Below, piece after piece: positions 4,201 to 62,693 of a stretch of 64,000 bases of DNA; position 1 is the stretch's first letter, and every line of letters begins with the position of its first letter. Position numbers and translations under genes: made by a program. Under the pieces are notes generated by a model. The model searched no databases, was not told where the DNA came from, and saw nothing but the letters and a program-made list of their open reading frames with translations. This DNA is from Leishmania mexicana MHOM/GT/2001/U1103 (taxonomy: Eukaryota > Euglenozoa > Kinetoplastea > Trypanosomatida > Trypanosomatidae). The DNA lies in the NCBI RefSeq assembly GCF_000234665.1, contig NC_018332.1, forward strand, positions 615,755-679,754. Direction: 5' to 3'.

Positions 4201-5245
4201 CGGGCGTGCGGAGAGGGTAAAATTCAAAACAGAGGGTAGCGGAGGAAAAAACTGAAGTCCCTCAGGCAATACGCCTCGCACGTGCTCGCGTACTGTGTTC
4301 GTCGTTGTCTCGTGCTTCACCACGGCAGCTTTGCAGAGCTCCCCCACCCCCTCCCCCATTCGTCTAGTCCCGCTGGCAGCTTGCGCTGTACACGACTGCA
4401 GCAAGTACCTGTGTTCATTGTTGTGCGCAAAGAGGACCTGCAGACCTCTCGATAGCCAGCGGTCTAGTCAGCTTGAACGGCAAGTGAGCTCATCTTCGCG
4501 GTACTGGGGTCGCCCTACTACCAAGAAGAGGGAAGGGGATGCGTATGCGCAGTCGGAGAAGGGAAAGGAAACGGCATGGAGAGACAGGGGGAGGAGGGGG
4601 AGGGGGCAGCGTGTGAGGCAGCGATGACGGCACTGTCGGCATGGAAGAGAGAGAGGTATAGAAGGCGTCATGGGCGCCCGCAACCGCCGCACTGCGCATC
4701 GGCTTGGAGGGAGGGGCGGGCCGTGATCCGCCTCACGCGACACAGATAGAGAGAGCAGGACGGATTCCATCGGATGTGCGCATGAACACCCACTGCGAAG
4801 GAGGGATATGAAAGCAGCGCATTCCTCCACGTCCAAAGTGCGGAGGAATAAAGCAAAGGGGGAGGGAGGGGGCAGCTGCCGCTCCGTCCGTGTCCGTGTC
4901 TCTTGGTGCTACTCTAACGGTACCCTTTCCCTGCGTCCCAATCCTCTGGTACGTGACTCGCCCTCCCCCGTCCCCCCTCCCCCAGTACCGGCGTGCACAC
5001 CCGCAAATCAGCACAACAGATGAGAGGCAGCGAGACACGCGAGGGGAAAAGCACACACACACACGGACACACAGGACGAACGTTGGAGAAGACGGCACGA
5101 AAAAAAAGGCATTCTGGTCGCAGGAGAGAGAGAAGCAACACCAGACATCCGAACCGCAGGAAAGTAAGGCAGGACGGTGAGACAAGGCAGTGCGGATTCA
5201 CAGGAGGGACTTGTCAGACAGGCATCCACCGGAACACATCCACTG

Positions 5246-11692: not shown

Positions 11693-14219
11693 CTAATGTG
11701 GCGAGGAGGACGAGGCTGTCTGCGAGCGTACGGCGCTCTCCACCTCCTTCATGAGGAGCACAAAGTCGTTCAGGTTCAACCCCTCGTGAATGCGTCGCAT
11801 CGGTGTCACGTTCGAGACGCGGTGCTTCATCTCTTGCACCATGGCCGTCCGACGCCCGGCCTCTGGCGTCATGAGCACTGTTGCCTCCTTGGCCAGGTCC
11901 TGTGTGTTTGCCGGCACCGCCGTCATGGATCGAGATCGCAGCTTCGGCTCGCGCTGCGGCGGCGGCGCGAGAGCAAGCGTCGACATGTTGGTGACGCGTC
12001 GGTGCACGTGGCTTCGCGCTTTGTCCTCACCAGAGTCCGACTCTACCCCGCTGCCAGCGACGGCCCGCTCAGGTGCGTCAGAGAGCGAGAGCGGCGATGT
12101 CGCCAATCTCGCCGAGCCGGCGCCATCCGCGACCAATGTCGCCGTCGCGTCCGGGTCGTTGGGCACGGGGACAAGATGCTGCACGTGCGAGGGGCTGCGA
12201 GCAAAGACGGCGAACCCCTCCGCGGACCTTCCGCCAGATGCAGCCGAAAAAGCAGCCGCGTTTCTGCCGCCCGCAGCGGTGAGGTACGACGCCGGATCGC
12301 TGCTAACGCAGCTGGTGCCACCGCTCGGCGCGAAGGAGAGCATAAGTGGACTCGAAGGGACCGCTGCCGTTCGCCCCATGCCGCCGCCAGCCGCCGACGG
12401 CGCGCCAGCCGCTGCCATCGTCTCCACCAGCTCTTCACCCTCCTCGCTGTCTCCGCCGCCGGCTGCTGTGTTCGCTGCTGTATCGGCTGCACTTGGGGTG
12501 TCACCGTCCTCATCACCGTCGCCAGCACGGCCCAGGTTGAAGAGCGGGAAGTCCTCCAGGATGGCCGCATGCGCCTCATCGGCGTCTCCGAGAGAGAGAT
12601 AAACCTCCATCGAAACGTAGTACATTGCGTGGTAGATGGCGGCGAGTCCGAGGCGCAGCTCGCGCTGCTGCTGGTCGTAGTCCACATCTGAGCGGAAGAG
12701 TAAGTGCAGACGACGCATAGCCGTCGCCACTTCCGCGTCGGTGTAGCTCACGTTGCGGCGACGAAAAATCTTGAAGATGAGGTGGCGCATGTAGAGCTGG
12801 TGGGTCGCCTCCATCTCCTCTTTGCTCGGCCGACTGAAGCCCTCAACCGTGGCGCTCTCGAAGAGGCACTGCAGCACGCCTTCGACGTGGAGATAGGAGG
12901 TGAAGTACAGACGTGTGCACCCCTCGAAGTCGGCTGCCGCGGCACGCGTGCACGCCTCTTGCTTAGGGAGAGAGATGAAGGGAACGCGAAGCCGAAACTC
13001 GCGCTCCTGCGGCGTCTCTCGCGCCCAGACGTCGTTTCGCCAGGCAGAGCCGCCGTGCTCGTCCGCCCTACGCTTCTTCTTTCGCCAGCACGGGAGACGT
13101 GAACACAGGCCAATCATGTGGCGAACATCTTGCTCGACGCCGCCGTTCTCCGCCATGTACTGCGCCTGCGCCTTGAGCAGCAGCTCTTGCACGCCGCGCT
13201 CCTCATCAGTCATGGCCAAGTCCTGGAAGTCGTTGTGCAGTCGCCGCAGCAGCCCATCACTGACCAGCGAGCCGATAATAAAGCGCTTGCTGCTGTTTAT
13301 CCCGACCAGCACATTCTCGCCGATGCGCGACAGGTACTCGGTGATCTCAGAGAAGCGCTGCAGGGCACGAGCGAAGCGGCGCAGCTGAAACGCCGCCACC
13401 GGCTCCTGCATAGACGCGTGCAGCTGCAGCACGAGAGGAAGATTGTACGTCACGTCGTAGGAGCCGTAGTCTCGCAGCTTCGACACGTCGCTCACATCGA
13501 AGCACGGGGCAGCGCCTGGTAGGCCGCGGGAGTAATGGCCGCGGCCACAGTCGTGCCCAGAAAGAGGGTGGAAGGGCCCAGAGCCCGTATGAAGCAGCCT
13601 CGGCTGCGTGTGGCCGCCGTTGCCGCTGCCGTTCCTTGTTCGCTGTTGCGCGGGCGCAGGACAGCGGCTGTGATTGCCCCGGCCATGCTGGGGCTCACCT
13701 GCGCGACCACCGCTCAAGGCGGGCATCGTGAGATGCGACGGCCCCGCTGTTGCCAGCGTCCCACCAGCCGCTGAGGGGTCGCGCCGCGGGGGCAAGTCGG
13801 GATCCAGTTCAGTGTCCCCAACTAGCTGGGCATCGAACCCGTCCTCGTCAGACGATCCGCCCGTCTCCTCCATCGCCTCCAGGAGCATCTGCTGCTCCGT
13901 GTCCTCATCGAATCCTGATGGCTCCGCCGGCCTCAAGGTCCTCGCCCCCGGCGAGGCCGGTATCTTGGGATCACCAGAGCTCATCATGTGCACGGAGTGC
14001 TTATAGCCGCTGCGAATTCGGCGCTTAGCACCCTTAAAGTTTTTCAACATCGCCTCGTACCGACGCTGCAGCTCCTGCAGCGTCTCGTAGTTGCTCAGTG
14101 GCACTTTAGCGAGGTACACCGGAAACTCCAGCGTGGACAAGATCGTCATGAGCTCCTCCAGCTCCTGCAGAACTTGATACGGGGTGTAGAACTCGTCCTG
14201 CCGGCGACAGTTGTAGCTT

Positions 14220-14250
<31 letters not shown>

Positions 14251-17200
14251 GTATTGAAAAAGCACGGCTGCCGTGCGTGACGTCCTGTGCGCCGTTAAAC
14301 TGAGTGCTGCGCGGATCGCCTTCACATGCAGTCCGCTTCCTGCTGCGGCACGAAGACGGCGGAGGACAACCGTGCAGCCCCGGTGCCCTGTCGTTCTCAG
14401 AGTTCTTGCTGACAGTCTGGCTGAACATGTGCGTCGCCCCGTTGTCGCTCCCATCACTGTCGTCATGCTCGCTGCCAACCCAGAGACCAAGGCGATCTCG
14501 CGGCGGGATGGACAGTAGCTGGCGGAAGCCTGGGATGTGAAAGAAATGCCGGGCCGCTGCGGCGGACTCGATGTGGAGTAGCGACTCGAAGCATCGGTAC
14601 TCCTCCTGGAGCAGACGCTTCGCAACTGGCCCCAGCGTCTTGGTGAGGCCATCATTGAGCACAATGTCGCAGCGGTGCAGAGTGGCGCCGGAGGTCTGCG
14701 TGAGGGCATTCGCCACGACAAGCGCCGTGTTCACCACCCGATTCTCGTCGGACGCCGTCACGAGCGGGTGACGCGTGAACTGAACGAGGCGACGCAGCGG
14801 CAGGTCTCCTGCTGCGTAGAAGCGTGCAAACAGCTTCTCGCCCATCACATGCGCCTGCAAGATCCCGGACTTGGTCAGTACACCGCCCCATTTCACCACG
14901 AGAAGGCCCACAGTCGGTTCGCCCGAGTCGTCGTCAGCGCTACCGCTTCCGCTGCTATGGCGACTCGGTACGCTGCCGCCGACTTTCCACCTTGCACTAC
15001 CGCCGTAGTGAACGTACCTCTGAGGGGAGGTCCGCTCACTCTCGGTAAACGAAACGGTACCCGAGGTGGACGTCATACGCGCCTTGACCTGGATCTTGAG
15101 TCCATCCGGGTGGCTTCGGACAATGGACAAGACACGCGCCCAGCTCTCTGCCGTGGATGCGGAGATCCGGCCTGTGAAGGGGCTGGTAGTGCCAAGGAAC
15201 GAAGCATCCAGCATGTCCGCGGACCCCGGAGAGCTCATATTTGAGGCTGGCGTCTCCAAGAGCAGCCGCTCCACCACCGCAAAGAACTCCGTCAGCTCAT
15301 CAACGCTGCGCTTCGTCCGGCGCACATCACGCCCTTGGAAGGCTAGCTGCAGCAGAGTCGGGTCGTTGAAGAGCAGCTTCTTCTTCTGCTTCGGCGTCAC
15401 CTCACCATGGCGAATGACACCCAGCACGCCGACAAGCTCGCGATCGGGCGAGTATGTGGAGAGCTTCTTCAGCGTGGCAAGGTGACGCACAAGGCTGTCC
15501 TGCTGCTGCTGCTGTGGTGGGTCTTCATCGTCTCCATCGTCGCCGTCATCGTCCACGTTCGGACCCGATAAGTCCACGGAGGTCGTGGGGCTGTTGTGTG
15601 GCAGCTGCGATGAGAAAATGGAGGCCTCGGTGCGCGCTGCCTTGCCTCGGCCACCCTCCGCTCGGCTGGGCCGAGGCGATGTCTCGTCAGGCGACGTCAC
15701 CACAATTTGTGGTGTGTTCGGGGTCAAAGGCGCTGCTGCTGCCGCTGCGGTGCCGCCCGCCACGGTTGGGGAGGCGTTCTCTGCCTCCAGTAGCGACAGG
15801 AAGGACGGCACGCAGCCGTCCCCTGTCGGCAGCCGTGCCGTCTCCATCACGACGTCTGTCAAGAAGGACACGTTCGGGTACGGTGCGGTGTCCACGTTGC
15901 CATAGCGCTCCGATATGCACCGCTGCCCAAACGCGATCGCCTCCTCCAGCCTCCTGAAAACGACAGGAAACTTACCGGAGGCCGTAATCTGCTCGATCGA
16001 GATGCGGTCGTACTCCTCTGGCACGTAGATGGGCAGGGCTGCCGAGGCGAGGAGAACCTTCTCCAGCCGTCCGTGGATGTCCGTCAGGATGATGCGCCGT
16101 GGTCGAGTCGGGTCCGACTTGGCGGTGTAGTCGAGGATGAAAGGCAGTGACGCCAGCGCCGCCGCGTCGATGTCGACCACTTTTCCACAGGTCACTATAA
16201 CAACGTCGATGGGGCGCACTTCCGCGGCGATGGCAGCGATGAGACGCTCCTGGAAGTAGCCGATGTTGATGAAATACAAAGGGGCGTCAAAACGCCACAT
16301 CAGGATGTTCGGGTACACGAGCAGCTCCGGGTCCTTTCGGATGTCTCCGTAGCGGAACGTCTGCATGTTGAATCCGACGCTCACCGCACGCGGCCGGGCA
16401 ATGCGAAGCACCACCAAGATGAGAGAGAACGCAATGCCACTCAGCACACCAATTGTAATGCCGCCGATCAGGGTCAGCAGAAAAGTGAGCACCCACACGC
16501 CGGCGTCCTTACGGCTGTAGTGCCACAGCTGCGCTGGCCCCGAGAAGTTCACGAGGCGCCACACACTCGAGACGACAATCGCGGCCAGCGCCTGCTTCGG
16601 TAGGTAGTAGAAGACACCAAGCCTCGTGAGGAACAGAATTGTGATCAGCACGACCGCGCCGGTCGCGTAGGCGGTCAGCGGCGTGTGCACCTTCTGCTCA
16701 ATTAGCACAGAGGAGCAGCTAAACGAGTTCGACACTGGCATGCCAGACATGAGGTTCACAAGCAGATTGGTGATGCCGCCCGCGAAGAGCTCCGTGTTGG
16801 GGTCGATATTCGGCATCACCCGCTGCGCCACCACGTACATCTGCACGAAGATGATCACGGTGATGGTCAGCGTGTACGGCCCCAGCCCGATGAGATTGTT
16901 CATTGGTGGAAAGCGCGGCCAGCTCAGGACGGCCGGAATGTCGCGCACGATCGCCAGGTCGAGGACCTGGTCCAGCCGGAGGCCCCACGTCACAAATGTA
17001 GAAGCGACGACAACGATGAGCTGGTGTGGGATCCAGAGAGGCAGTCCGGCTTTCTTGATCTGGATCAGGTACGTGCAGTACACCATAAAGATCATAAAGC
17101 AGTAGACGTTTTTCGCGGACATCTGCGACGCAAGCGTGATGAGGGTGTTGATGAAGTTTCCGTAGCCCTTGTCCTCTGGCACGACGTTGAACATCACCTT

Positions 17201-17734
17201 CAGCTGGGCCGAGATGGCCAGCAGCGCCGCGGCGCACGTGTAGCCATCGCCGACGGCCTTCGCAAAGATTGTCTTTATGACGGTACCGCAGTCCACAAAG
17301 CTAAGCACCATGCTCAAAATGCCCACCTGCACGCCGAGGCTCTGGAATGTGTCCTTGCGCTCCGCGACCGGGATGCCTGGGATAGAAATGAGCAGCGTCG
17401 TGATCTCCGCCACCGGTCCGATCGACAGCGACGCGCACTGGCCAAACGTGCCGTAAGAGAAGGAGGCGACTAGGGCCGCGATGAGACCGCACGAGAACGG
17501 CAGACCGGCCAGACTGGACCACGAGAGACACGTCGGCACAATCATGACGCCAACGATGAAGCCGGCGATGCCGTCACTGAGGATGATCTTTGGGGTTAGC
17601 AGGCGGTACCATCGCGAGACGGGCACAAAGCGGTAGACGTACTTCATCGCGGTCCTCTTCCACACCTCCCTCGCGCTCACCGGGGGCTCATGGCCGGCCC
17701 TGGCGAGGATTGCACTGGCTGTGACATGAGCCAT
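11693..17734 (-). CDS. SLC26/SulP anion transporter fused to a PPIP5K (Vip1)-type phosphatase domain (2013 aa)
   Basis: Residues about 50-450 are a multi-pass SulP/SLC26 transporter: the conserved LSIGPVAEITTLL segment near 103, and GITNLLVNLMSG with SNSFSCSS near 320-345, then YLPKQALAAIVVSS. A STAS domain follows at about 470-605. After an acidic, Gln-rich linker (606-745) comes a histidine-acid-phosphatase fold of the PPIP5K/Vip1/Asp1 type: IRHGEVTPKQKKK (774-786), LLVVKWGGVLTKSG (944-957), TASDENRVVNTA (993-1004), a YDVTYN segment near 1426, and TRLYFTSYLHV (1607-1617). PPIP5K phosphatase domains normally read RHGDRTPKQK, so the second arginine is Val779 here, while His776 and His1616 remain. 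The ATP-grasp kinase half of PPIP5K is absent. Large disordered inserts (835-945, 1095-1180, 1250-1410) include nine consecutive Gln at 1164-1172. The single frame is uninterrupted. Uptake of sulfate or a related anion tied to inositol pyrophosphate is inferred. Confidence 0.92.
14218..14248 (-). repeat. CAG repeat coding for nine glutamines in the fusion protein
   Basis: A near-perfect CTG run on the plus strand (CAG on the coding strand) encodes Gln 1164-1172, between the two halves of the phosphatase-like domain. A second short CTG run near 15499-15513 encodes five Gln in the linker after STAS. Length polymorphism between strains would be expected. Confidence 0.9.
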
Positions 17735-40325: not shown

Positions 40326-42095
40326 TCAGCACACGCGGTCAAAGCGGGCAACGTAGAAGCCGTTCGTCGCGTCCGTCGCCGGATCGCAGCGGATGGTGAA
40401 GCGCAGCGGGTGCTCCTCGCCCTCCCTCTCCACACCACGCGTCTTCCACGTGTTGGGCATAACGTTACTCAGTCTCCACCCACGCGCCTTTACCCGCTCG
40501 TCATCCAGCACCTGCCGCACAACCTCCTCGTTCTCCTCCTCATGCACGGAGCAGGTGGAGTAGACGACGGTTCGGCAGTTGTCGAAGGAGAGAAGGGAGT
40601 GCGCCAGGAGCTTGCGCTGCAGGCGCGCCAGCTTCTTGACCCGCTCTTCCTTCTTTGAGAATTCGTTGCCCTGTGCTGCAGGGTTGATGGCGCCGCTGTT
40701 GGTGCTCTCCTCGTGGTCGCCGCCGTTCAGCTGCCCCTCCTCCGCCGCCGCTTTACGGTCCGCATCCCCGTGATGGCTGCCGCGCCGGCTGCCATGAAGA
40801 GAGGAAACTTTGCCGTCAGCCTGCTGTGCCTTATCCTTGCACTGCTGCTGCGTCTGCTGCTCGTGGTGGTGGTGCTGAAGAGCCACGTCGACGCGCGTCA
40901 TGACACCGCTGGCGCTGCAGCTGGGGTCGAGCAGGATGCCCTCTGTCGCTGCGCGGTCGTCGGAAGAGAGCTGGAAAAAGTCCATGTTCACGACATTGAC
41001 GTAGTCCGCCGCGCCGAGCGACGCCACCCGCTTGGACAGCAGCTCGGCACGCCGCTCATCACGCTCGGTCGCCATAATCTTAATATGTGGTGCACCGAGT
41101 GCAGCGAGCTGCGTTGTTTTGTTGCCCGGTGCGGCACAGGCGTCGATAACGTACTCCAGCGGCTTGCGCGCCGCCGCATCCGTCTCGATGTCCCTCCCCG
41201 TTTCCCTCCCCAGCGCTGTACCACCCTTCGCCTTCTTGCCGCCTTTCGTGCCGCTGGTCTTATCGCCTTCTATCACCTCAACAGGGACAGCGTCAAGCAG
41301 CACCGCTGCAGGAAGGCAGGAGGCGCGATCTTGCAGAATCAGCTGACCGCTGCGCACCGCCGGGTGCGCGTGCAGATCCGTGCCAGGTGGGAAAACCAGC
41401 ACATGCGGCACAACAGGGTCGTGCGTGAACTCGGGAAGCGGGCGGTGTGGCCGCGAAGACGCACGACGTGTGGCGCGCTTGTCACCCTTCTGCTGCTGTG
41501 GGTGAGAGCTAGCAGCGGCGTCGCCGTCACTGTCCTCGGCGTCACGGGCGCGCTTGCGCGCCTCTGCGGAGCGGCGCAGTCGACTCACCAGCTCCTCCAC
41601 CGAGAGTTTGAGAGTGTTGACACGAGCGTAGCGCGGCAGCTGCAGCGAATGGGATGAGGGCGCGTCGTCGCCGCTGCGTCTCTTCCCTCTCGCACCGCCC
41701 TCCGTCTCGGCTGCCACCTCATCTTCCAGCTTTTCATCGCTGCGCGGCGGGATGACGTGATGCTTGCACACCTTCCAGTACGCCTCACGCAGGTACGGGG
41801 CCGACTGCATTACGGCACGCGCGGTGCTGTCGTTGTGGGTGTTAACCCCCTTGCCGAGCACCACGTCGTAGGCCATGCACATCGCAAACTCGTGGTTCGC
41901 CTGCGGGTAGTACTGGAAGAACTCCGCCACCTCCAGCACGTCCTCGAGCAGCTCGTAGTGGCGCAGCGTCTCGCACACGACAGCATAGGTCTGTTTCTTC
42001 TTCTGCATGTCCTTTCGCAGACACAGCGCCTTGGCCGTGCCATTGCCCTCGCGCACGATGCCGACAATCTCAGCCGCCTGACGGTACACGTCCAT
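40326..42095 (-). CDS. NSUN5: NSUN5/Rcm1-like rRNA (cytosine-5) methyltransferase (589 aa)
   Basis: SAM-dependent RNA m5C methyltransferase of the Nop2/Sun family. The N-terminal helix MDVYRQAAEIVGIV and the Tyr/Cys-rich stretch after it match the NSUN5/Rcm1 N-terminal region. The SAM-binding motif DACAAPGNKTTQ lies at about 319-330, motif IV is DPSCSASG near 389-396, and the catalytic motif YSTCSVHEEENEEVV is near 510. The DPSCS form (rather than DAPCS) is typical of NSUN5. In yeast and mammals this enzyme methylates one cytosine of large-subunit rRNA, so nucleolar action on 25S/28S rRNA is the likely role. A His/Gln/Gly-rich disordered insert of roughly 70 residues separates motif IV from the catalytic cysteine region, and a Lys/Gly insert precedes the SAM motif. 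Confidence 0.93.
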   Translation of the reverse strand: MDVYRQAAEIVGIVREGNGTAKALCLRKDMQKKKQTYAVVCETLRHYELLEDVLEVAEFFQYYPQANHEFAMCMAYDVVLGKGVNTHNDSTARAVMQSAPYLREAYWKVCKHHVIPPRSDEKLEDEVAAETEGGARGKRRSGDDAPSSHSLQLPRYARVNTLKLSVEELVSRLRRSAEARKRARDAEDSDGDAAASSHPQQQKGDKRATRRASSRPHRPLPEFTHDPVVPHVLVFPPGTDLHAHPAVRSGQLILQDRASCLPAAVLLDAVPVEVIEGDKTSGTKGGKKAKGGTALGRETGRDIETDAAARKPLEYVIDACAAPGNKTTQLAALGAPHIKIMATERDERRAELLSKRVASLGAADYVNVVNMDFFQLSSDDRAATEGILLDPSCSASGVMTRVDVALQHHHHEQQTQQQCKDKAQQADGKVSSLHGSRRGSHHGDADRKAAAEEGQLNGGDHEESTNSGAINPAAQGNEFSKKEERVKKLARLQRKLLAHSLLSFDNCRTVVYSTCSVHEEENEEVVRQVLDDERVKARGWRLSNVMPNTWKTRGVEREGEEHPLRFTIRCDPATDATNGFYVARFDRVC

Positions 42096-57242: not shown

Positions 57243-59843
57243 TCACCTGCGATCCTCGCGGTTGCCACGTCCGCGACCACGTCCGCGGCCACGCCCGCCC
57301 CGGCCGCCCCGACCGCCAGCAGCAGCGCCACCGATGCGGCGGAAGTTACCTATGCGGCCGCGCACTTCCTCGCAGAGCGGGCTCAGGCCTGGATGACAGA
57401 AGATGCACGCGACAATGCGGTCCTTGCGGTTGGGCAACACGCTCTTGCCCTCGGGGAACATGATGTCGAGGCAGTTGGCGGCACATTCGAGGCATTCCTC
57501 GGAGGTGACGTAGACTCGCTGCGCTGTCGGGGGCAGCTTAATCATCATGGGGCACTTGTTGCAGCACACTTTCCACTGACCAGCCGTCCGGGGAACGAAG
57601 GCCATGCTGCCGGCGCAGGAGCCGTCCACGCAGTCGCACACGTAGTTCGTGGCGAGGGAGTGCTCGCACGTGGGGTGGCGGCACTCGTCACACGCCATGT
57701 GCCGAGTGGATGGTGCCGTCGTCGCCGCTGCCCCTCCACCGTACCCGCGGTGGTGGTGCTGTATGGCGGGGCGCATGTCCTCAAAAGGCGGGTTGTTGTA
57801 GCATTGAGGGCAGATGGGAAACGACTTGCCGCCTTCGATGTGACAGATGACGAGCTCGAAGTTGTCGATGGGGCACTTGAAGCTGGAGTACTGCTTGATG
57901 GCGCCGCCCTGCGGCAGGGCGAACGTCACCTCGCAGTAGGGGCAGTAGAGCCGCTGAGGACGGGTATCCAGGTGCTTCAGGTAGCGCATGCAGTTGCCGC
58001 ACCGCGTAATCGGTTTCCCGGTGGCGGAGATGGCGGAGAAGGAGGCGCCCATGAGGGCATCGAAGACGTCTATGTGCTCCTTGAAGAACTTAAACTTGGA
58101 GAAGAAGAGGTCGAGCGAGTAGCTGAGCACGTCGTCGAGCTGCGCGCGGCCCTCGGCGATGTGGGTAACATACTCCTCCACGCGACTGCGCACGAGCGGC
58201 AGCACCAGCTCCGGGTCGATAGCCTTGATGCCGTGGATGAGCACGATCCCAAGCTTTGATGGCTTCATGACACGCCCTGCCTGCACACTGCAGTACCCGC
58301 GCTCTACAATGTTGTTGACGTGGGTGGAGATGGACGCGTCGGTTCCGATACCGTTCTTCTCCATCAGCCCAATGAGGTCCGACTCCGTCAGGTACGACGG
58401 CGGCTGCGTCTGCCCCGCCTGCAGCCGCACATCGGACAGCTGAAAGGAGTCGCCCTTGTTGATGCCGGTCGGCATCCTGTCGTCCTCGACGCGGGCGTGC
58501 GGCATGATCTCCGTGAAGCCGGGGTCCTCCACCACCTTGCCCGAAATGCTAAAAAACTCACCGCCAAGCTCGATCGTGATCTTCGTCTTGATTAGCCGGC
58601 AGTCGGGCGACACGGAGGCGATGAAGTGCCGCGTGATGTACTCGAAGATGCGCCACTCATCCCCGGAGAGCTCGCCAGGGGACGCGCTTCGCATCGGCGT
58701 GATCGGCGGGTGATCGCCAGCGTCCTTGCCTGCCTTGGGGCGCGCGTGCCCTTGCTGCAGCAGCGCCGTTACGTAGGCCCCCCACATGGAGTGGTTTTTC
58801 TGCTGAGCGAGGGTGCCAGCAAGGTTAAAAGATGGCGGGTATGCCGTGGATTCGGTACGAGGGTACGAAATGTAGCCGCGGATGTACAGGTTTTCGGCGA
58901 TGCTCATCACGTAGTGGGGACCGATGCCAAGGGCCCTGCTTGCAATCTTCATGAGATCCACTGTGTTGAGGCCGGTCGGCCGCGGACGCGTGTCGTTGCT
59001 GACGGACACGTTGGCGACAGTGGCCACCTTACCGTTCTTGGTGATGCGCTGAAGGATCAGCCGCGCCATCGTCTCATCGAAGAGGCGTCCACGATCCCAC
59101 TCAAACTGCAGCAGTGCGCCGCCGCGTGTGGCGACCGGGACGAGGCGCCAAAAGTTCTCCGGCTTGAAGTTCAGGATCTCATCATGGCGCTGCACGCAGA
59201 AGCCGAGCGTCGGCGTCTGGCATGGGCCGTAGCTGATTACGCTGGCATCCAAGTCGCCGTACTTGCCCTGGAAGTACTTGGTTTGAAACCGGGTGAAGGC
59301 TACGCCGACCTTCAGGTCCAGTTCCTGCCGGCACGTCACCGCGTCGCTGACGTTCTTGTTCGGCTTCCCGAGATTGCGGAAGGCGTGGAAAATCTCCTCC
59401 GCCGTGATGGCCGAGAAGTGTGCACGGAAGATGTTGTTGTGGTTGTAGATCTCTCGCCGCACGACCTGCATCACCTCAAAACAAATGTTCTCACCCTCAC
59501 GATCACAGTCAAGCCACAGCACCAGTGTATCACAGCCTTGCGCCTCATGCTCGAGGTGGTGGGTCACCTTCCCCGACGTGTCCTTCCACGTGATCGGCGC
59601 GGTGAAGAGCTGCTCCTCATCCGTGCGATCCCAGTTTTGATGCTGAGAGGTGAAGTCGCACGAAAAGACGTGACCGGTGGTGCTCGTCACCTTGAAGTAT
59701 GCTGGACTGCCCATGAAGTTCCCCATGTACTCGTACACCGGCAGCGCACGGGTGCGGCGGGAGCAACTTCCGTTGCTCAAGATCGTCGCGATGCTCTCTG
59801 CCAGCGACGGCTTCTCAGCCACCATCAACACATTGCGGCCCAT
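57243..59843 (-). CDS. TOP3B: DNA topoisomerase III, beta type (866 aa)
   Basis: Type IA topoisomerase that passes single strands through a transient break. MGRNVLMVAEKPSLAESIA opens the Toprim domain, with WLDCDREGENI near 115. The catalytic tyrosine is in RGYISYPRTEST near 325. GIGTDASISTHVNNI near 500 is a conserved type IA segment. Four cysteine-rich zinc-finger units run from about 610 to 830 (CGNCMRYL, CPYCEVTF, CPQCYNN, CDECRHPTC, CNKCPMM, CLECAANC), and an RGG/RG-rich tail ends the chain. The length (about 860) and RGG tail indicate TOP3-beta, which in animals also acts on RNA with TDRD3. The frame extends 11 codons upstream to 59876 through a GT repeat; MGRNV at 59843 is the family start. 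A C/T tract at 59932-59955 probably belongs to its acceptor. Confidence 0.96.
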   Translation of the reverse strand: MGRNVLMVAEKPSLAESIATILSNGSCSRRTRALPVYEYMGNFMGSPAYFKVTSTTGHVFSCDFTSQHQNWDRTDEEQLFTAPITWKDTSGKVTHHLEHEAQGCDTLVLWLDCDREGENICFEVMQVVRREIYNHNNIFRAHFSAITAEEIFHAFRNLGKPNKNVSDAVTCRQELDLKVGVAFTRFQTKYFQGKYGDLDASVISYGPCQTPTLGFCVQRHDEILNFKPENFWRLVPVATRGGALLQFEWDRGRLFDETMARLILQRITKNGKVATVANVSVSNDTRPRPTGLNTVDLMKIASRALGIGPHYVMSIAENLYIRGYISYPRTESTAYPPSFNLAGTLAQQKNHSMWGAYVTALLQQGHARPKAGKDAGDHPPITPMRSASPGELSGDEWRIFEYITRHFIASVSPDCRLIKTKITIELGGEFFSISGKVVEDPGFTEIMPHARVEDDRMPTGINKGDSFQLSDVRLQAGQTQPPSYLTESDLIGLMEKNGIGTDASISTHVNNIVERGYCSVQAGRVMKPSKLGIVLIHGIKAIDPELVLPLVRSRVEEYVTHIAEGRAQLDDVLSYSLDLFFSKFKFFKEHIDVFDALMGASFSAISATGKPITRCGNCMRYLKHLDTRPQRLYCPYCEVTFALPQGGAIKQYSSFKCPIDNFELVICHIEGGKSFPICPQCYNNPPFEDMRPAIQHHHRGYGGGAAATTAPSTRHMACDECRHPTCEHSLATNYVCDCVDGSCAGSMAFVPRTAGQWKVCCNKCPMMIKLPPTAQRVYVTSEECLECAANCLDIMFPEGKSVLPNRKDRIVACIFCHPGLSPLCEEVRGRIGNFRRIGGAAAGGRGGRGGRGRGRGRGRGNREDRR

Positions 59844-60938
59844 CACACACACACACACTTTCCAGCCAACCGTCACACCTAATCTTTCAGCTGATGTGTG
59901 GCCTCGATGGTCGCGAGAGGAGCCACGGAGCGGGGGGAGAGAGAAAGAGGAGACCAGTAAAAGCCAACCTGATGCAGCTAAAGAAACGACGGAGCGATGG
60001 AGCGATGAAGAGGGGGAGGGAGGCCCTCACGGTTCTTGCGTTTCGGCTGCACACACAAACACACACGCACACACACAGCGGCAACAATATAAAGCATAAA
60101 AGGTAAGAGAGCCGGTGAATCCTGCGAAAAAAAGGAAAGAGGGAGGAGAAGGTAGATGGCGAAGTGGGAGGAGGAGGAGCAGGAGGAGCGAGAGAGAGAG
60201 GGGGGGTTTGAGGGGGGATGGTCCGAGCACACAGGGAGCAACCAACATGGTAAGAGATGATGAGGTTTGGCGGGAGAGCCGCCACCACCGCATTCGAGAT
60301 CTGCTCGACCCACAAACACACAGCAGACACACACTCCATCGAGGGCCTAAAGGCGGCAGAAGTGGGGAACAGAGGAGGATGGAGGCAGCACCATTTTGCA
60401 TCCCGCCCCGCCCCGCCCCCCTCCCCAGTCCCCTGCCTCTCTCCTTTCACTACCGTCATCCTCGGCGTTCTTTTCAAGCTCTCTCGTGAAGTGCTTGGCA
60501 GGGCCTCCCCCCCCCCCCCGCCTCACCACGTGCGCGGGCGCGTGTTGGGGGGAGAGGGGGAGGGGCTTTACATTGGCGCCTCAGAAATGGAGGCGTGAAA
60601 CAGTCCGCTGCGGCACACGGCCGACAGCCGGACGATGGACTCGGACGTGGCCACACAGACTGTCGCCCCCCCCTCTCACACTGTTCGCCTCTCCTTCTGT
60701 TTTCCTTTTCTGTATCTTCAAAGCGGAATGACTGACAGACGCGGGGAAGGGGAGGGGCCATGTATGTCTGCATGCTGTTGCGTAGAGGAGTACCTACGTT
60801 CCCGTGATCTTTGCCGCATGCCGTCCCTCGTGGAGTCGTCTCGACGGAGAGGGAGGGAGGGAGATCAGGACGGGCGGCAAAAGAGGCGACTCGAATGGGT
60901 AACACAGCGTGGCGCACCTGCGGCGTCATCAGACAGCT
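59844..60938. other. Intergenic spacer between PCH2 and TOP3B
   Basis: About 1.1 kb with no supported gene. CA repeats lie at 59843-59859 directly before the TOP3B ATG (GT on the coding strand), and at 60055-60078. Runs of GGAGGA near 60168-60190 and a C-run near 60508-60521 occur. The PCH2 3' UTR lies at the high-coordinate end. Confidence 0.7.
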
Positions 60939-62693
60939 TTAGGAACCGCTATTCGCATCGAGTACGGCCACCGCAGCTGCTTCCTGTGCAACCTTGAACA
61001 ACGCCTCCAGGTAGTCCCGCAGAGGCAGAGGCGCATCGACGCCACCGCTCTGATCGCCCTGCCACGCCGACTCGCTACGACCGCAGCCGCCGGAGTAAAA
61101 ATTGCACATGCACGCGCCGTACGCCAAGAATGGCAGTTTCTTCAAGGTGCGGCCGTTTAGTCCCACGCACACCTTGGCAATGTGATGGAGCAGCTCACTG
61201 ATCGGGTAGGCAGTGTCAGAGAGGCAGTGCGACGGCAATTGGGGATGCGCTGGTTGCGGGGCGGGGACCGTTCCCGAACTCGTGAATGGCGGCATCATCT
61301 GCTGCGGTAGTTTGTGAAACGGACGCGGCACGTCGTGCAGCGCGGTCAGCTCTTCATTCCACATGTGTGCGGCGTCGGCGGTGCCGCTGTCGCCATCCAG
61401 CAGATGACTGCCAAAGCCTCGGTGCGCGCCTACGTTGCCCCCGTGTGCCGCTTGCCCCTCCGCCTGACAACGCTCGTCCGCGGCAGAGAACCCGCTCAGT
61501 TCGTCAGGCAGCACCGGCGTCCCCGCCTGCGGTGCAGCCACCAACTGCTTGTCCACTAACTCCTGCACGCTCGCATATAGCATGAGGAAGCGCGCCTGCA
61601 CACCTGGCGGGCCGACATACACGCGCTTGTCCGCTCTGTCCAGCAGCGCAACATCAATTGCCGCCGTCAAGTTTGTGGTGGCGAGCACAACGATGTTCTT
61701 GCAGTCCTGTAGTCGATCCATCTGTGTGAGCAGTGCGTTCACGACACGGATCGAGTCAGATGGTTCGTTGCCCTTCATGGCGGAGGTGCGCGCTGCCGCG
61801 AGGCTCTCCACCTCGTCCATCACACAGCACACCAAGCACTCCTTGTCGTCGGCGATGCGGTGCACCTGCTCAAACAACTGCAGGACGCGTTTGCCGCTCT
61901 CGCTGAACCAGCGACTGAACAAGCTGTGAGCGTTGATCTCCAAAAGACACGCGCGAGCATACACCGACGAGGCGAGGCGGATCGACAGTTTCTGCGCCAA
62001 GGCGCGACACAGCGACGTCTTGCCCGTGCCTGGCGGGCCGTGGAAAAGAATAAGTCGATTCCATGTTACAAAGTTAGAGCTAACCCCGGCGTGGGTGAAC
62101 CGCATGGCGGTGTCCACGTAGCTCACGATGTCCCGCTTGAACGCAATCGACGCCGCCTCACTCTCGCCGTAGTACAGCGACTCCCACTGGCCCTCCAGTG
62201 AGATGTGCGGCAGGGGTGTCACGGTAAAGGTCGACGCACTGTCACCTTCGTCGCCGCCGCTGTGCATGCTGTCAGCCGTGCACCACGCCGGCAGAGACGC
62301 CTGGGTAGCCGGGGCGGACGCGGCGGACGATAGTGGCCTACAGAGCGTTTCGCCGTGGAGTCGGTACAGGCGCATGCAGAAGTACACCTGCTCCATATTT
62401 GCCCACGAACAGCCTGCCGGGAAGGAGACATCACACACCCGCATCGACACGACATCGTCTCTCAGCAGAGGCGGCGCGTCTGCGAGAGAGATGGGGGCGC
62501 CAGGGAGAAACGGCGGCAGGTGGCCCGCGGCCAGTCGGCGGCTGGCCTGCACGCGCACGTAGGATCGGACGAGGCTGCTGAGCTCGGGCCAGGCAGCGGT
62601 ATCGGCCGTGGTCCTCACTTCGATCACCACAGGGTACCGCGTCGATTCTCCCTCAGGGGGGAGTGGTGGTGAGCAAGATTGGCGGCGCATCAC
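60939..62693 (-). CDS. PCH2: PCH2/TRIP13-type AAA+ ATPase (584 aa)
   Basis: AAA+ remodeller of HORMA-domain proteins such as Mad2 and meiotic Hop1. Walker A is GPPGTGKTSLCRALAQ near 219; LEINAHSLFSRWFSESGKRV is the conserved pore/SESGK segment of Pch2/TRIP13; Walker B is VMDEVESLAAAR near 290; VRVVNALLTQMDRL and VLATTNLTAAID (sensor 1) follow near 315-345; and DRADKRVYVGPP matches the TRIP13 arginine-finger region. The N-terminal 200 residues would hold the HORMA-binding domain. The protein is longer than human TRIP13 (432 aa) because of an insert near 425-510. A likely acceptor (CACCTTTAG) lies within about 50 nt of the ATG. Confidence 0.93.
   Translation of the reverse strand: MMRRQSCSPPLPPEGESTRYPVVIEVRTTADTAAWPELSSLVRSYVRVQASRRLAAGHLPPFLPGAPISLADAPPLLRDDVVSMRVCDVSFPAGCSWANMEQVYFCMRLYRLHGETLCRPLSSAASAPATQASLPAWCTADSMHSGGDEGDSASTFTVTPLPHISLEGQWESLYYGESEAASIAFKRDIVSYVDTAMRFTHAGVSSNFVTWNRLILFHGPPGTGKTSLCRALAQKLSIRLASSVYARACLLEINAHSLFSRWFSESGKRVLQLFEQVHRIADDKECLVCCVMDEVESLAAARTSAMKGNEPSDSIRVVNALLTQMDRLQDCKNIVVLATTNLTAAIDVALLDRADKRVYVGPPGVQARFLMLYASVQELVDKQLVAAPQAGTPVLPDELSGFSAADERCQAEGQAAHGGNVGAHRGFGSHLLDGDSGTADAAHMWNEELTALHDVPRPFHKLPQQMMPPFTSSGTVPAPQPAHPQLPSHCLSDTAYPISELLHHIAKVCVGLNGRTLKKLPFLAYGACMCNFYSGGCGRSESAWQGDQSGGVDAPLPLRDYLEALFKVAQEAAAVAVLDANSGS

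Follow-up and report, generated by a model that had tools for sequence, protein, structure and literature searches.

What is the role of an anion carrier that continues, in a single reading frame, into the phosphatase half of an inositol pyrophosphate enzyme? The question is raised by the window analysed here (the whole stretch of 64,000 nucleotides from Leishmania mexicana MHOM/GT/2001/U1103, contig NC_018332.1, positions 615,755 to 679,754), in which one open reading frame (ORF) joins a SulP/SLC26 membrane domain and a STAS domain to a phosphatase domain of the PPIP5K (Vip1/Asp1) type. An earlier note on this DNA, made from its letters alone, had described the fusion and suggested that the carrier is tethered to an enzyme or sensor of inositol pyrophosphates. 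Our results point to an anion permease that inositol pyrophosphates would regulate, in which a probably inactive PPIP5K-derived domain is the predicted sensor, and we place the probability of this reading at about one half.

Domain layout of the fused protein

The frame is uninterrupted over 2013 residues, as the note had stated, and runs from 17734 to 11693 on the minus strand, the strand being absent from that note. Its parts are as follows.

11693..17734, minus strand: whole ORF, SulP-STAS-PPIP5K-type phosphatase fusion; 2013 residues from the ATG, no internal stop
16484..17578, minus strand: SulP/SLC26 membrane domain, residues 53-417; Pfam PF00916 Sulfate_transp, E 3.3e-46
16142..16330, minus strand: STAS domain match, residues 469-531; Pfam PF01740, E 7.3e-6
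15830..15973, minus strand: conserved post-STAS segment, residues 588-635; shared with the N-terminal part of the related protein P0158
15503..15814, minus strand: variable linker, residues 641-744; mean pairwise identity 32.9%, poly-Gln run at its end
12575..15502, minus strand: PPIP5K-type phosphatase region, residues 745-1720; from Pfam, hhalign and Foldseek, interrupted by variable inserts
14204..14500, minus strand: variable insert 1, residues 1079-1177; mean identity 34.8%, model pLDDT (predicted local distance difference test) mostly <50
13511..14014, minus strand: variable insert 2, residues 1241-1408; mean identity 33.5%, model pLDDT mostly about 30
11900..12574, minus strand: variable tail, residues 1721-1945 (225 residues); mean identity 31.4%
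11696..11899, minus strand: conserved C-terminal tail, residues 1946-2013, containing TPMRRIHEGLNLNDF; mean identity 76.9%

The Sulfate_transp, STAS and His_Phos_2 matches all exceed the Pfam cut-offs, which bears out the SulP carrier with STAS that the note had placed ahead of a phosphatase-type domain. Sulfate_transp followed by STAS is the usual order of SulP/SLC26 proteins (AtSULTR4;1, BicA, prestin, SLC26A9), and an extra region of about 1400 residues follows STAS, beyond the usual layout of that family. Across the fused family, mean pairwise identity is 83.5% in SulP+STAS, the highest in the protein, and 82.7% in the phosphatase core. The SulP+STAS part is, by this measure of conservation, under constraint and not decaying, because it is the best-conserved stretch of the fused protein. 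Poly-Gln runs occur at the end of the linker (5 Gln, 15500-15514) and within insert 1 (9 Gln, 14219-14245).

Origin of the C-terminal half

A protein search with residues 740-1760 as the query returned 35 proteins. Seventeen of these carry SulP and His_Phos_2 domains, namely the window's own protein (P0002) and 16 others (P0003-P0018), and the remaining 18, the next relatives after the fused proteins, are PPIP5Ks (PF18086 + PF00328; E 1.4e-6 to 9.1e-4). Pfam His_Phos_2 (PF00328) matches residues 766-1016, and a profile-profile comparison (hhalign) with ten PPIP5Ks aligned 194 columns in the first part of the domain at 99.05% probability; the profile comparison that the note had proposed for the C-terminal half is significant to both His_Phos_2 (E 4.7e-10) and PPIP5K (E 2.2e-18). 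Structure prediction followed by Foldseek, also proposed there, put the phosphatase of yeast Vip1 (ScVip1) on top: the first six rows for the window's domain model are all this domain, one of them with E <0.001, which we take as support only, and the predicted fold of P0158 has the same domain as its best match among solved structures. The window's own domain model is poor (pLDDT 44.8), a point against our reading, and for the fold we rely on P0158 and the PPIP5K-containing alignments.

The four sequence landmarks of the PPIP5K family that the note had listed are found in the order claimed, the first reading IRHGEVTPKQK (residues 774-784) against RHGDRTPKQK in PPIP5Ks. The fused protein shares with PPIP5K/Vip1/Asp1/VIH proteins RH..TPKQK, the KWGG hinge, SDExRV, R(F/Y)DxS and LYFTS..H, and possibly a GAF-like lobe and an LHNxLSL-like tail. 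It differs from them in lacking the ATP-grasp kinase, whose absence the note had also pointed out (no PF18086 match in the ORF by Pfam), in the change of RHxxR to RHxxV/L/Q, in Tyr at the places of His836 and Glu991 and in being joined to SulP. The tail likeness is that of TPMRRIHEGLNLNDF to the PLETLHNxLSL tail of 5 of 15 PPIP5K rows (all animal where named; a likeness without a statistic); a true relationship would argue for a PPIP5K origin of the entire C-terminal half.

When a whole PPIP5K (P0020) was searched against the 32.0 Mb genome, only the phosphatase part of this ORF matched, and no second PPIP5K was found; a genome search with PF18086 (no match) and one for ITPK had no responding control, so neither bears on absence. 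In Table 1 of PMC8024741 the PPIP5K count is 0 for both L. major and T. brucei. The genome holds nine His_Phos_2 matches, this ORF included. Other acid phosphatases were rejected as the source of the domain on the open frames of two of the other eight, L008 and L009, which have the look of ordinary secreted or membrane acid phosphatases. L009 (G000:C20 2465742-2468981) is an acid phosphatase with a long Ser/Thr-rich repeat tail and is apparently secreted. The flea protein 8gdl, a histidine acid phosphatase pseudoenzyme, is by its title neither of the PPIP5K type nor fused to a carrier.

Conservation of the fusion

The SulP-STAS-phosphatase architecture is present in 17 further proteins, with Leishmania, Porcisia, Novymonas, Lotmaria, Leptomonas and Strigomonas among the sources, and the survey suggested in the note finds it recurring in Leishmaniinae and Strigomonas. 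Identity in the queried part is 88% to L. donovani and 78% to L. tarentolae. Two further relatives, P0157 and P0158, came from a search with a profile built on three phosphatase regions. The former (Strigomonas culicis, partial) carries SulP, STAS and His_Phos_2; it is without the first membrane helices and the last phosphatase part and enters some counts only. P0158, of 867 residues, has no SulP domain and probably represents the C-terminal portion of a fused protein, because its start falls within the post-STAS segment of the fused proteins; when its first 130 residues were compared by BLAST with five family proteins, 55 columns aligned to residues 591-634 of P0001 at 43.6% identity (E 1.5e-7 for this small set). 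P0158 retains RHAER and KYDTCHN and may be an earlier state of the fusion in which the enzyme is active. In a tree of 14 of the 20 fused or fused-like rows and 13 of the 26 PPIP5Ks, the fused and PPIP5K groups part at 100/100 and P0158 branches first on the fused side; branches are long (2.98 for P0158), and this placement is a best estimate. The simplest reading of these sequences is that the catalytic arginine was lost after fusion, in the line leading to Strigomonas and Leishmaniinae. Each of the three protein searches scored only the approximately 8000 candidates sharing most words, and therefore the absence of the fusion from Trypanosoma or Bodo cannot be concluded.

The frame could instead reflect two genes misjoined in assembly, or could yield two trans-spliced transcripts, as the variability of the linker and the generally tight packing and trans-splicing of trypanosomatid genes would allow. 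We consider this highly improbable. The same fusion in 16 other proteins and in Strigomonas (P0157) rules out the misjoin near residues 606-760 that the note had named as a possible refutation, and P0158 too starts ahead of the linker, in the post-STAS segment. The longest pyrimidine run in the linker (residues 607-766) is 8 nt, against runs of 19 and 15 nt in the upstream flank of 1266 nt. Elsewhere in the ORF, outside the linker, there are a 12-nt run at nt 268 and a soft tract at nt 4743. This sign is weak, to the benefit of the two-transcript reading, because the 893 nt downstream of the ORF also hold no pyrimidine run longer than 11 nt. Misjoining and separate transcripts are therefore rejected chiefly on the conservation of the fusion, with the pyrimidine runs as weak support.

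Catalytic site of the phosphatase-derived domain

In the counts below the search hit P0002, which is the window's own protein, is excluded, P0005 (a second L. donovani protein) is in the 18-row counts and not in alignments A1 and A2, and in the focused alignment 25 of the 26 PPIP5K rows serve as controls (P0164 left out), many of them near-identical isoforms. The motifs concerned are the following.

15398..15412, minus strand: catalytic loop R775-H776-G-E778-V779, RHxxR changed to RHxxV (focused alignment)
14735..14755, minus strand: ASDENRV motif, residues 994-1000; R999 invariant
13445..13447, minus strand: Y1430, where ScVip1 has the zinc-site residue His836; Tyr in 16/16 fused rows against His in 11/11 PPIP5K rows
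12884..12916, minus strand: TRLYFTSYLHV, residues 1607-1617, with Y1614 at the place of ScVip1 Glu991; Tyr in 16/16 against Glu in 11/11

The place of ScVip1 R551 is occupied in the focused alignment by Val (16), Leu (1) or Gln (1) in the 18 fused SulP rows, whereas all 25 PPIP5K rows have Arg. In yeast Vip1, the substitutions R547A, H548A or R551A each greatly lower hydrolysis (PMC11836120). A residue needed for catalysis in ScVip1 is lost in the fused proteins, which at the level of sequence is the mark of a pseudoenzyme, and the phosphatase-derived domain is probably inactive. The H651 place has His in 1 of 18 fused rows, yet in only 4 of 25 PPIP5K rows too. Of the two roles offered by the note, 'enzyme' is unlikely because the R551 equivalent is lost in 18/18 rows and Tyr has taken the place of both His836 and Glu991 in 16/16; 'sensor' appears the better guess.

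The protein could nevertheless be a working inositol pyrophosphate phosphatase, held at the membrane by the carrier for local removal of the signal, with the carrier as an anchor or as a Pi (inorganic phosphate)- or sulfate-regulated part. The equivalents of Arg547 and His548 and the arginine of ASDExRV are invariant in the fused rows, the RHAER of P0158 is intact, and branch 1 histidine phosphatases do without an arginine at the R551 place. Pi, and less so sulfate, inhibit the yeast Vip1 phosphatase, a possible link to an anion carrier, and the yeast enzyme does not need Glu991 for activity, E991A being more active (PMC11836120), which weakens the case for a dead domain. Against a working enzyme stand the loss of R551 in every fused row, a change that alone greatly lowers activity in yeast, and the Tyr at His836; a suppressor screen in S. 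pombe is listed as having given the same His-to-Tyr change, at H686 of Asp1 (PMC11836120). We regard a working phosphatase as unlikely.

Ligand-contact residues

Thirteen residues of yeast Vip1 are named in PMC11836120 as binding or channelling 1,5-InsP8; one lysine is printed there as K557 in a passage and K556 in the methods, and the K556 numbering agrees with the yeast Vip1 sequence. Three stretches of the fused protein carry equivalents discussed here.

15083..15097, minus strand: K880-x-Q882-x-K884, equivalent to ScVip1 K623/Q625/K627 on a GAF domain strand (focused alignment; 16/16 in A2)
14882..14896, minus strand: V947-K948-W-G950-G951, equivalent to ScVip1 K644 and hinge G646/G647; K948, G950 and G951 invariant
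13481..13498, minus strand: D1413-V-S1415, equivalent to ScVip1 D819 and S821 of the alpha-insertion domain; 16/16

Each of the 16 fused rows has the yeast residue at the places of K554, K556, K558, K623, Q625, K627, K644, D819 and S821, and the equivalents of the hinge residues P553, G646 and G647 are retained in 18 of 18. Invariance at 9 of the 11 mapped sites, K605 being counted as a miss, compares with 249 of 975 invariant columns in the whole region (p 1.4e-4).

Binding without catalysis is possible, since the yeast domain retained 1,5-InsP8, under a closed GAF lobe, after alanine had replaced its three catalytic residues (PMC11836120); the same crystal contained a dimer linked by a disulfide, and the 1-beta-phosphate of the ligand did not point towards the active site but away from it.

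Several observations weigh against retained binding. The mapped set covers 11 of the 13 ligand residues, as E576 and K732 could not be mapped; K605 is not kept (Ser, Asn or Glu), and at K817 the 16 rows have Arg 13 times, Leu once and Cys twice, one of these two being the window's protein. Within the ordered blocks, where 246 of 595 columns are invariant, the same enrichment reaches only p 0.007. The full-length alignment A1 has no KxQxK match, the PPIP5K columns there being gaps in 10 of 11 rows, and P0158, with its intact RHxxR, has Glu and Lys at the K623 and Q625 places. In a second alternative, the domain is a degenerate scaffold or a platform for dimerisation or protein docking that binds no inositol phosphate, and the carrier works independently of it. 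Such a scaffold would fit the changed catalytic and zinc residues, the long variable inserts and variable tail that flank the domain, and the conserved parts without a known role, the C-terminal tail among them. It does not account well for the invariance of the mapped InsP8-contact sites while R551, H836 and E991 have changed, or for the retained hinge, and it too is improbable in our view.

The anion site of the carrier

At E 0.001 this ORF is the only SulP match in the genome (32.0 Mb, 545 contigs), and the best solved relative of its SulP part is AtSULTR4;1 (7lhv, E 9.6e-54). Q112, Y116, S392 and R393 are among the residues of the AtSULTR4;1 sulfate site, and E347 couples protons (PMC8298490). 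The corresponding residues are these.

17519..17533, minus strand: T68 and W72, at AtSULTR4;1 Q112 and Y116; Thr 17/17 and Trp 17/17 among the fused proteins, P0157 not reaching this far
16841..16843, minus strand: Q298, at the proton-coupling Glu347 of AtSULTR4;1; Gln 18/18 in the family
16715..16720, minus strand: S339-C340, at AtSULTR4;1 Ser392-Arg393; Cys 18/18 in the family, the pocket arginine being lost

Four of the five mapped AtSULTR4;1 anion-site residues are replaced in the fused family. A search with the SulP part alone gave 142 relatives, of which the best 120, all at 31% identity or less, were compared; among these best 120 the Q112 place is Gln in 113, the Y116 place Tyr in 120, the Glu347 place acidic in 117 (Glu 108, Asp 9) and the Arg393 place Arg in 120. 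The named proteins in the best 120 include none from a trypanosomatid, the group in which short SulP relatives were sought. Gln112 is described as universal in eukaryotic homologs, and position 393 as Arg or Lys in all but SLC26A9, a chloride channel (PMC8298490). From other SulP/SLC26 proteins the fused family is set apart by Cys for the pocket Arg, Gln for the coupling Glu, Thr for Gln and Trp for Tyr, in addition to its C-terminal extension. The replacements of Gln112 and Arg393 may be a coupled change, because the two residues touch in AtSULTR4;1 (PMC8298490).

The signature of an H+/sulfate symporter of the plant SULTR type (Arg393 with Glu347) is not found in the fused rows, which have Cys in 18/18 and Gln in 18/18. 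Proton-coupled sulfate uptake is improbable because the pocket Arg has become Cys and the coupling Glu has become Gln; an exchanger, a channel-like permease or a carrier of another anion is more likely, to judge from these residues. Ser392 is kept in 17 of 18 rows, Trp retains the aromatic character of Tyr116, and AtSULTR4;1 E347Q keeps about 40% of transport, though with little dependence on a pH gradient (PMC8298490); these three points temper the case for a rebuilt site. The note's carrier coupling anion uptake to the signal stands as regards the SulP fold and needs care as regards the uptake, since four of the five site residues are replaced.

The 'sulfate transporter' label of the genome's sole SulP match is doubtful, because signature residues are lost in both carrier and phosphatase. 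TbSULT (Tb927.5.1260) is likewise a trypanosomatid protein annotated as a sulfate transporter, acidocalcisomal and of 63 kDa in T. brucei (PMC11537032); by its mass it is too small for a SulP-phosphatase fusion. The Crithidia sulfate transporter in PMC3990616 is a separate, putatively bacterial gene.

Proposed mechanism and its meaning

We propose a mechanism in which the C-terminal half would lie in the cytosol, as the STAS domains of SLC26 proteins do. The GAF-like lysines would still bind highly phosphorylated inositol (InsP7/InsP8), with little or no hydrolysis, and ligand binding would close the GAF lobe as in yeast Vip1. Closure may then act through the adjoining STAS domain and alter the state of the carrier, and transport, judging from the Cys and Gln replacements, would be passive or exchange movement of an anion and not proton-coupled sulfate uptake. 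A bolder version, which we put forward tentatively and with the odds somewhat against it, is that a PPIP5K phosphatase captured by an SLC26 carrier lost its catalytic arginine and was turned into a receptor, giving an SPX-independent, inositol-pyrophosphate-gated anion channel or permease; the rebuilding of both halves would then have been complete in the last ancestor that Strigomonas and Leishmaniinae share.

Control of transport by inositol pyrophosphates is so far known via SPX domains. SPX transporters and the VTC complex share with the proposed mechanism the idea of a cytosolic inositol pyrophosphate sensor on a membrane transporter, and differ from it in that the predicted sensor here is a former phosphatase and not SPX. 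No SPX domain was matched in the ORF by Pfam at E up to 1; elsewhere in the genome there are two short SPX matches, one barely above the cut-off, together with two IPK matches and one IPPK match. InsP8 has been reported in trypanosomes without a known PPIP5K (PMC13384419), and PMC12077091 describes the enzyme behind IP8 synthesis in T. cruzi as unknown. The InsP8 report concerns Trypanosoma and not Leishmania, which lessens its weight for the signal assumed here. In a study of VTC neighbours in L. tarentolae, the word sulfate is absent from the main text (PMC13375126).

If the proposed mechanism is true, there would be an inositol pyrophosphate receptor other than SPX, built from the enzyme that degrades the signal, and kinetoplastids, scored as without PPIP5K, would have retained its phosphatase half in a new role. 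It would also give a handle on how these parasites link anion balance to the InsP7/InsP8 signal. No paper on a SulP-PPIP5K phosphatase fusion was found in a search of the open literature, most subscription journals being outside its scope. The note's remark that the architecture is undescribed holds for papers in that search but not for databases, the entry name of P0007, 'putative Sulfate permease family/STAS domain/Histidine phosphatase superfamily (branch 2)', already listing the domains without the PPIP5K origin. Nor did the literature searched contain the derivation from PPIP5K, the loss of the arginine, the retention of the ligand residues or the altered pocket of the carrier; in PMC9542443 leishmaniasis is named solely as a disease. 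The name LmjF.28.1690, which we take to be a possible name of the gene, matched no paper.

Neighbouring genes

A Pfam scan of eight neighbouring ORFs in the window left five without a match. Genes on the minus strand nearby include an NSUN5-like RNA methyltransferase (40326-42095), a topoisomerase 3-beta-like protein (57243-59876) and a TRIP13-like AAA ATPase (60939-62693).

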